NCBI RefSeq assembly: GCF_900696045.1
Contig: NZ_LR216287.1
Span: 1-64,000, forward strand
DNA from: Candidatus Nitrosocosmicus franklandus
GTDB taxonomy: Archaea > Thermoproteota > Nitrososphaeria > Nitrososphaerales > Nitrososphaeraceae
Direction of reading: 5' to 3'
Length of the DNA stretch: 64,000 nt
How positions within the stretch are numbered: the stretch's first letter is position 1; each line of letters begins with the position of its first letter. Below are positions 52,338 to 56,707 of the stretch, one piece after another. The position numbers and the translations under genes are program-made. The notes beneath the pieces are model-generated. The model had not been told where the DNA came from. It saw nothing but the letters and a program-made list of their open reading frames with translations, and made no database searches.

Positions 52338-53021
52338 TTAATGAATTTTCTTTTCTCGAATGCTAAATACTTTAGTTTTTCCGTAAGAATAAATATCATG
52401 TGTAATCGTATCAAAATAGTAATTTTTTCCTATGAGATCGATGATCTCTTTTGAAACGACTATTTGATCTGCTTCTGCTATTCCTTCGAGCCTATTTGCG
52501 AAGTTAACATTAGAACCAACAAGGGTTATTTGGTTTCTACTTTTTGTCTCTAGGAGGCCAAACAAAACATTTCCTATGTGAATTCCACATATCAAGGTAA
52601 CGTCGTCTAGATTGATCGGTTTGGTAACAACTCTAGTGGACCAGCTTTTTTTTATTTCTCTAAATTTTTTTCTCATATCCAATGCAGCATCAATCGATTG
52701 TGAGGCAATTTCCTGTTTATCGTTAGAGGAATATCCGAAAAATGCCATCACACCGTCTCCTATGAATTTGTCTATTATTCCATCATATCTATGAATGACG
52801 TTGTTTGCTTCTTCAAAATATAATTCTAAAAGTTCAGCTACTGCAAATGGTTCGTTACTCAGATTATTGCATAAATCAGCAAATCCACTTAAATCCCAGA
52901 AGGCGATTGCAAGATATTTGTCTTTTAATTTCCGCTGCTCTGGATCCTTTAAGATATCGAGTATTTTTGAATCAAAATGTTTAGTAAGGTCATATTTGTC
53001 CATCTCAATATCCTTGTGCAT
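52338..53021 (-). CDS. Class III adenylate/guanylate cyclase domain protein
   Basis: 227 aa, essentially one catalytic domain. Metal-binding Asp in AIAFWDLSGFADL and in DKFIGDGVMAFFG (the Lys before it is the base-recognition position), transition-state Asn and Arg in GSNVNFANRLEGIA. No receptor, HAMP or transmembrane segment, so it is soluble. It should make cAMP or cGMP as a dimer. ATG start. Cyclic nucleotide targets are not visible nearby. Confidence 0.9.
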   Translation of the reverse strand: MHKDIEMDKYDLTKHFDSKILDILKDPEQRKLKDKYLAIAFWDLSGFADLCNNLSNEPFAVAELLELYFEEANNVIHRYDGIIDKFIGDGVMAFFGYSSNDKQEIASQSIDAALDMRKKFREIKKSWSTRVVTKPINLDDVTLICGIHIGNVLFGLLETKSRNQITLVGSNVNFANRLEGIAEADQIVVSKEIIDLIGKNYYFDTITHDIYSYGKTKVFSIREKKIH

Positions 53022-53713: not shown

Positions 53714-54940
53714 ATGATTTCTCAAGAAATCAGTAGAGATCTTTATGATTCTTTAATGGAAGTTCATAGCAGGAATATAAAGGAATTTGTAGAAAATCCA
53801 ATATTAACAAAAGAAGATGTACCAATATCTAAAATTATTGGAATGATGTTAAAAGAAGATGTTCATGAGGTGTTTATTCAATTACCAGGAAAATCCATTT
53901 CCTGCATAAATATAAGAGATATTCTATCTTCCACGCATATTGAAACGTTAAAATCTTCAACTGTAGGAAGACCCATCCCCACTCTGACAGAGAATGACAA
54001 TCTAGGAACCGCTGCAAGGTTAATGAATCTGCAGAGACTGAAATCTCTTCCTGTAGTAATCGACCAAGACGGAAATCAAGATCAAGAAATAATTGGACAA
54101 ATATCGTCAAAGAGAATTATGCAGTATATTTATGATACTATCTCAAAGAAAAAGACTAATCTTCAGAGCAAGATAACTGCAGCAGACATTATGACGCCAA
54201 CGTTAATAACTATTAATCCATCCGATAAATTTGATACGGCCAAAGGTATGATGAAAAAAGAGTCCATAGATCACCTACCTGTTGTAGAAAATCGCCGGGA
54301 CAGTAGTGTAGTGATAAAAGGAATGATAACTTCAACCCATATTCTACAGACGCTGATACCTGCTGAAAGCATTGGAAGGAGATCTTTAGGGTCGGATTAT
54401 GAGCTAAAATCAAATCAGGAAGTAATGGGTTTAGCTGATAAAAATGTTGTAACAGTCAAACCCAATGATAATATAACAACTACGATTAATACATTGTTAA
54501 AGACGAATTCAACTTACACTATGGTTCAATCCTCAGACGACGTGTTGGGGATAATTACATATCGAGATATAATTTCATTGTTAGGAGAACAAACTCAGAG
54601 GGAATTGCCTGTATATATAATAGGGATGCCTGATGATCCGTTTGATTCAGAATTGATAAAATCAAAATTCTACAATATTGTAGAATTTCTAAGCAAGATT
54701 ACCCCAAAAATTGAAGAAGCAAGATGTAGGATTAAAGCGATAGAAAGCGAAGGCAGCCAGAAAAAAAGATATGAAGTGACGGCTAATATATTCACAGCAA
54801 ATAAGCGTTATATTTATACCTCGAAGAAGAACTGGGATCTAGTTTCAATATTTGACGACATAAAAGAAGGTTTAAGGAATCAGATAGGATCTGAAAAAGA
54901 TGACAAACAGAAAGCATCGATAAGATATCCTCAGGAATAA
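53714..54940 (+). CDS. CBS-domain protein with C-terminal HPF/ribosome-hibernation-like domain
   Basis: 408 aa. Four CBS motifs in two pairs: about 15-75, 80-150 (VGRPIPTLTENDNLGTAARL), 155-215 (TAADIMTPTLITINPSDKF), 232-290 (VVTVKPNDNITTTINTLL, GIITYRDIISLL). CBS pairs bind adenine nucleotides. Residues about 295-395 resemble the HPF/sigma-54-modulation fold, with YEVTANIFTANKRYIYTSK and WDLVSIFDDIKEGLRNQI matching the family's final helix. HPF proteins inactivate ribosomes. A nucleotide-gated ribosome-hibernation factor is a reasonable inference. ATG start; a TTTTATAAAAG box lies near 53633-53643. Confidence 0.85.
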   Translation: MISQEISRDLYDSLMEVHSRNIKEFVENPILTKEDVPISKIIGMMLKEDVHEVFIQLPGKSISCINIRDILSSTHIETLKSSTVGRPIPTLTENDNLGTAARLMNLQRLKSLPVVIDQDGNQDQEIIGQISSKRIMQYIYDTISKKKTNLQSKITAADIMTPTLITINPSDKFDTAKGMMKKESIDHLPVVENRRDSSVVIKGMITSTHILQTLIPAESIGRRSLGSDYELKSNQEVMGLADKNVVTVKPNDNITTTINTLLKTNSTYTMVQSSDDVLGIITYRDIISLLGEQTQRELPVYIIGMPDDPFDSELIKSKFYNIVEFLSKITPKIEEARCRIKAIESEGSQKKRYEVTANIFTANKRYIYTSKKNWDLVSIFDDIKEGLRNQIGSEKDDKQKASIRYPQE

Positions 54941-56040: not shown

Positions 56041-56707
56041 GGCTCTGTTCAGTTAACAGGTTTTAATTCCTTGTTGTGATAGTCGACAAACAGGTTCAAC
56101 CAGTTTTTTACGTGTTTTAGTTTGCAGTTCTTTAGCCTGCAGGGAAAGTAATCATCGAAACTTTCAGTTCTGTCCTTGATATACTGCATTGTTCTTTCAA
56201 TCAAGTTTTTTTCATAGGAGGAATGGAGATGGTGTTCTAATTTAAGGAATTGACAAGCCATGGGATACCAAGTACCACCATCTGTTGAAACTGGATGCTT
56301 TCCATAGTCTCTGACTATGTTTGACAGAAACCGTTCCGCAACAAACATGTTTCTCTCCTTAGAAATGGATAGTGAGAGAATTTCCTTACTTTTCGCATCT
56401 ATTGCAACCCATAACCACGTGTATTCTGAACCAACCTTAAGCAATGTTTCATCTACAATGAATTCACATATCCTTCTTTGTTTTGTCTTGATAATCTTAG
56501 GTTGGTACTTTTGAATCCAGTTCCAGATAGTGACATGATTTCGTTTGATACAGTATGATAATCTTTCAGATGTTTTCCTAAGAGAAAGACCTGAAAAGTA
56601 CAAATGTAAGCCATAATACACATATTTTGAAGGTGTTCTGTTTCTAGTATTCATAAAAGAGATAGGACATCTTCAAGCTATAGACTTGACGCTAAATGAA
56701 CAGAGCC
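56041..56707 (-). mobile_element. IS6-like insertion sequence, 667 bp, intact
   Basis: Ends are 11-bp perfect terminal inverted repeats GGCTCTGTTCA (56041-56051) and TGAACAGAGCC (56697-56707), with partial pairing for about six further bases. One transposase gene fills the element, and both sides carry the 8-bp duplication GTAACATA. Size, terminal repeat and duplication length agree with the IS6 (IS26/IS240) family. No interrupted gene is recognisable at the join. Confidence 0.93.
56049..56654 (-). CDS. IS6-family DDE transposase
   Basis: 201 aa. N-terminal helix-turn-helix (GLSLRKTSERLS ... NHVTIWNWIQKY), then the DDE catalytic core: first Asp in EFIVDETLLKVGSEYTW, second Asp in PVSTDGGTWYP, Glu in KNLIERTMQYIKDR. 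Shorter than bacterial IS26 transposase (about 234 aa) but within the range of archaeal members. ATG start. All three catalytic residues are present, so it could be active. Confidence 0.93.
   Translation of the reverse strand: MNTRNRTPSKYVYYGLHLYFSGLSLRKTSERLSYCIKRNHVTIWNWIQKYQPKIIKTKQRRICEFIVDETLLKVGSEYTWLWVAIDAKSKEILSLSISKERNMFVAERFLSNIVRDYGKHPVSTDGGTWYPMACQFLKLEHHLHSSYEKNLIERTMQYIKDRTESFDDYFPCRLKNCKLKHVKNWLNLFVDYHNKELKPVN

Follow-up and report, generated by a model that had tools for sequence, protein, structure and literature searches.

Among the described factors that put archaeal ribosomes to rest, the closest to the locus studied here is HibA, which consists of four CBS domains and an HPF/RaiA-like domain (Madru et al., Nat Commun, April 2026, PMC13324472). 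Cryo-EM showed HibA on ribosomes of Pyrococcus abyssi, a gene knockout was examined in Thermococcus barophilus, and the factor occurs in 47% of archaeal genomes (PMC13324472). On the ribosome, its HPF domain sits in the mRNA channel of the 30S subunit, where two archaeal insertions in this domain contact uS19 and uS12, and its CBS module binds the 50S subunit at one of three alternative sites (PMC13324472). HibA blocks translation in vitro, and deletion of hibA in T. barophilus doubled the lag and left about 60% fewer 70S ribosomes (PMC13324472).

The window analysed here, a stretch of 64,000 nucleotides from the soil ammonia oxidiser Candidatus Nitrosocosmicus franklandus, carries a gene of this plan within a host genome that forms a single contig of 2.84 Mb (Table 1). 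The plus-strand reading frame runs from an ATG to its stop, and the protein shares the start M(I/L)S with its relatives in the genus. Comparison with an 81%-identical orthologue, located on JAKDMR010000332.1 (3301 bases) of Candidatus Nitrosocosmicus sp. isolate 48_S62, revealed purifying selection (dN 0.093, dS 0.76), and sequences with an identical plan of CBS module followed by HPF domain, 365–400 aa in length, were found across the phylum. The CBS and HPF architecture of the gene is confirmed as real and not a product of chance. We consider the product to be, with high probability, a HibA-type ribosome hibernation factor that parks and protects idle ribosomes, its ribosomal role being read from the P. 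abyssi and T. barophilus proteins. The locus itself contributes five established elements: the architecture, the HPF fold, the homology to HibA, the purifying selection and the existence of two paralogues.

Table 1. Features of the HibA-like gene in the window (positions are those of the 64,000-nucleotide stretch).
Feature	Position	Strand	Basis or remark
HibA-like gene	53714..54940	+	408 aa; four CBS repeats, then a C-terminal HPF/RaiA-like domain
CBS1	53771..53938 (about residues 20-75)	+	sub-threshold in Pfam; conserved INIRDIL motif, alignment to P. abyssi HibA
CBS2	53969..54133	+	Pfam; signature IIGQISSKRI
CBS3	54182..54355	+	Pfam; signature IKGMITSTHI
Loop between CBS3 and CBS4	54359..54433 (residues 216-240)	+	alignment to 9sr9_H
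CBS4	54431..54583	+	Pfam; signature GIITYRD at 54548-54568
C-terminal HPF/RaiA-like domain	54605..54919	+	structure model, Foldseek, VIA, family profiles

Kinship to HibA was apparent from sequence searches against the PDB. The best match of the window protein as a single sequence was P. abyssi HibA (9SR9 chain H, E 4e-13), and a 27-member profile ranked the same chain first (1.4e-36), ahead of 9l96 (1.1e-31), 9znf (8e-31) and the dormancy factor Dri (9e6q, 1.5e-20). That HibA led in both searches is a ranking by search score, and the CBS module may be closer to that of HibA (HibA-CM) than to the other modules, CM-1 to CM-6. The matched chains, 9SR9 chain H and those of seven sister entries, come from the HibA-ribosome structures deposited by Madru et al. 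(PMC13324472). In these depositions the HibA chain bears the name “Dehydrogenase”, so searches of the PDB by name miss it. The window protein is a member of the HibA family; its architecture has already been published, and it represents no new kind of system.

Pfam identified three CBS stretches in the single sequence (E 3.3e-26). The alignment to 9sr9_H begins at query residue 35, or at profile position 17 when the family profile is used. Since the first repeat corresponds to CBS1 of P. abyssi HibA in this alignment and carries the conserved I-x-R-D motif, the count of four CBS motifs given in an earlier note on this DNA is right, three of them by Pfam and the first by homology and motif. The NCBIfam names PrdR, CcpN, HhpR and DS11 anti-phage were also considered for the protein and rejected, as these matches rest on the CBS domains and fall far below the cut-offs. 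The full-length AlphaFold2 model was built from two sequences and reached a pLDDT of 37.5, which made it unusable outside the C-terminus, so the layout of the CBS module is taken from homology.

Within the module, CBS4 residues G279, I280, T282 and D285 are invariant in all 27 relatives (G-I-x-T-x-x-D), a pattern consistent with an adenine-nucleotide site that has been retained. In CBS3 of the window copy, a His replaces the Asp of GxxTxxD, and such a His is common at this position in other HibAs of the order. Residues 216-240, between CBS3 and CBS4, align at the sequence level with the peptidyl-transferase centre (PTC) loop region of 9sr9_H without large gaps; their placement matches, and their length resembles, the loop of P. 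abyssi HibA that enters the PTC, which comprises residues 190-207 (PMC13324472).

The C-terminal domain is far more diverged. As a single sequence it matched Pfam Ribosomal_S30AE (PF02482) at E 0.08 and 14.1 bits, under the gathering cut-off of 23.7, and family profiles were used for this reason. Among 33 relatives, 23 matched the same Pfam family (E up to 1, the best at 1.2e-4). A profile of the 33 relatives reached Staphylococcus aureus HPF at E 1.5e-4, and once further classes of the phylum were included, the profile reached it at E 3.4e-5; this phylum-wide profile also touched the C-terminal part of P. abyssi HibA (330-377) at a marginal E of 0.038.

Because the full-length model was of no use beyond the C-terminus, the C-terminal domain was folded alone, and scans of viral contigs yielded no further sequences. 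AlphaFold2 returned a mean pLDDT of 76 and the strand-helix order βαβββα, the order given for HPF/RaiA and HibA (PMC13324472). In Foldseek the top 17 rows were all HPF/RaiA/pY/RafH proteins, as were the top 33 rows of a VIA comparison against the PDB (Z 12.4 to 7.7), where the next fold was a dsRBD with Z 7.1. The absence of P. abyssi HibA from these rows is uninformative, given that its entries may postdate the library. The earlier note had read the C-terminus as HPF-like and named a fold unlike HPF as grounds for giving up that reading; the predicted fold is HPF, and the profiles match bacterial HPFs. Its further claim of ribosome silencing is likewise well supported by the HPF fold, the profiles and a characterised HibA family of matching architecture.

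The HibAs of P. abyssi and T. barophilus would set the pattern for how the window protein docks on the ribosome, inhibits translation, preserves ribosomes and binds nucleotides. By analogy with these characterised proteins, the HPF domain would dock in the 30S channel, and the tethered four-CBS module would fill vacant tRNA sites on the 50S subunit at the peptidyl-transferase centre, uL5 or the L1 stalk. Through this occupation of the vacant sites, idle 70S ribosomes would be held inactive under starvation or stress and shielded from degradation. AMP is probably bound by the CBS3-CBS4 pair in preference to ATP, and this binding may tune the release or sequestration of the protein without switching ribosome binding on or off.

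A different view of the CBS module is that ribosome binding is switched directly by the AMP/ATP ratio, in line with the nucleotide-gated, energy-state control of silencing proposed in the earlier note. The GIxTxxD signature of CBS4, retained in every one of the 27 relatives, favours this view, as does the P. abyssi CBS module, whose ligands are AMP (Kd 12 µM), ADP and ATP, with a single AMP site at the CBS3/CBS4 interface (PMC13324472). However, no nucleotide was seen in native P. abyssi HibA-ribosome complexes, and added AMP or ATP left the three HibA binding states largely unchanged, with no clear effect on ribosome binding or conformations (PMC13324472). We therefore regard such gating as rather unlikely: a direct nucleotide on/off switch is not supported, whereas a role for the nucleotide in the release or sequestration of HibA is possible.

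The genome encodes a second HibA at 730360-731568 (copy B; G000:C1, L002), which is 51% identical to the window copy (copy A). In the phylogenetic tree, A and B form two sister clades, each with a support of 100/99, that split before the radiation of the genus. Both copies are kept in 2 of 15 genus genomes (G000 and G013), and most Nitrosocosmicus have only B. In three others (G009, G010 and G207) only an A-type copy was seen, some genomes in the comparison being incomplete, so that A can apparently serve as the sole HibA. The surroundings of copy B are conserved across Nitrosocosmicus: it is flanked by a thioredoxin-like protein and, on the opposite side, by a small charged protein. Close to copy B there is also a protein containing 22-residue repeats that are nearly identical (AYNQAKNTSMELVNQAPDALKG).

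Copy A is an accessory copy. In the stretches compared, none of its neighbours recurs at other A-type loci, and no operon-based function is claimed for it. The adjoining gene in the window encodes a 227 aa protein with a class III adenylate/guanylate cyclase catalytic domain (52338-53021, minus strand), and an IS240/IS6-type DDE transposase (56049-56654, minus strand) lies 1.1 kb downstream. In G013, the orthologue of the window copy adjoins a short protein of 143 aa that appears ATP-cone-like by eye (L010:804-1235). Elsewhere in the genome of the window, a divergently transcribed gene pair (G000:C1:1357218-1359075, L008) encodes standalone four-CBS proteins of 297 and 299 aa, and the plus-strand one has 9zni chain 6 as its closest PDB entry. 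This pair coexists with the two HibA genes; HibA and some standalone CBS modules have been reported to be mutually exclusive (PMC13324472).

The presence of two copies raises the question of whether the window gene is the working factor. Copy A could be a diverged accessory paralogue that kept the fold and took on another role, for example as a sequestered or regulatory HibA, with B as the working factor. The 51% identity of the two copies, their joint retention in so few genomes, the conserved neighbourhood of B beside the unshared one of A, and the loss of the CBS3 Asp in type A copies but not in type B all point in this direction. The loop between CBS3 and CBS4 has also diverged (36% identical to copy B there), and from this loop and the lost acidic CBS residue it follows that the window copy could have specialised. 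Nevertheless, purifying selection acts on the CBS module of copy A and on its HPF domain alike (dN/dS about 0.12 against G013), A-type copies stand alone in the three genomes named above, and the CBS3 substitution is widespread in the order. We consider such a change of role quite unlikely. A related proposal, in which the paralogues split the job between a core B with both CBS3/CBS4 acidic residues and an accessory A with only that of CBS4, and hence differ in nucleotide or stress response, appears distinctly improbable. The least credible alternative is that the protein is a CBS-domain transcription or metabolic regulator of the HhpR or AMPK-gamma type whose C-terminal domain binds something non-ribosomal: HhpR has CBS modules of such a type (a weak NCBIfam match at E 8e-9, with 35 bits where the cut-off is 520), but no DNA-binding domain was found in the window protein, no fold rivalling HPF at its C-terminus scored above Z 7.1, and its closest solved relative is HibA bound to the ribosome.

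Taking the window protein as a HibA-type hibernation factor, we find the family to be patchily kept in ammonia-oxidising archaea, duplicated in some Nitrosocosmicus and, in one genus of a sister family, pared down to the HPF domain alone. Matches at E 1e-10 were present in 152 of 300 genomes from the class. The HPF domain was present in 105 of 200 genomes of the sister family f2, which is probably Nitrosopumilaceae; in its genus g16 the domain occurs mostly as a standalone protein of 111-134 aa. The standalone HPF-like loci of this genus are L060-L073, for example L061:1255-1593 and L064:1242-1574. Nitrosopumilaceae have been named among the lineages without identifiable hibernation factors, and standalone HPF/RaiA-like proteins have been listed in Nitrososphaerales (PMC13324472). 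If f2 is indeed Nitrosopumilaceae, the former statement needs to be narrowed to part of the family. These findings extend the HibA system into ammonia-oxidising archaea, slow growers that pass through long starved periods, and the natural variants (patchy, duplicated or reduced to the HPF domain) could be used to probe how the CBS module contributes to hibernation, which PMC13324472 leaves open.

Compared with the known systems, the window protein is nearest to HibA (P. abyssi Q9UYR4, PDB 9SRE/9SR9; T. barophilus F0LKU5; PMC13324472), which likewise has four tandem CBS domains followed by an HPF/RaiA-like domain. The two are of similar build (392 aa for HibA, 408 aa for the window protein) and share both the loop inserted between CBS3 and CBS4 and the GxxTxxD signature of CBS4. 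They differ in sequence, with strong similarity confined to the CBS module and the C-terminal domain the most distant part, in the change of the CBS3 Asp to His, and in the second paralogue within the same genome. Bacterial HPF/RaiA proteins (protein Y, YfiA) share their fold with the C-terminal domain of the window protein (about 100 residues aligned, VIA Z as high as 12.4) but lack a CBS module and are about 10-19% identical to that domain in structural alignments. Archaeal standalone HPF/RaiA-like proteins, of about 111-134 aa, have an HPF domain that is homologous to the C-terminus of the window protein, at 28-37% identity, again without a CBS module. Dri of Pyrobaculum calidifontis (9E6Q) is also an archaeal ribosome dormancy factor with CBS modules, and is a weaker match by the profile (E 1.5e-20); within its 655 aa, two CBS modules are fused and an HPF domain is lacking, whereas the window protein combines a single four-CBS module with an HPF fold, as HibA does.
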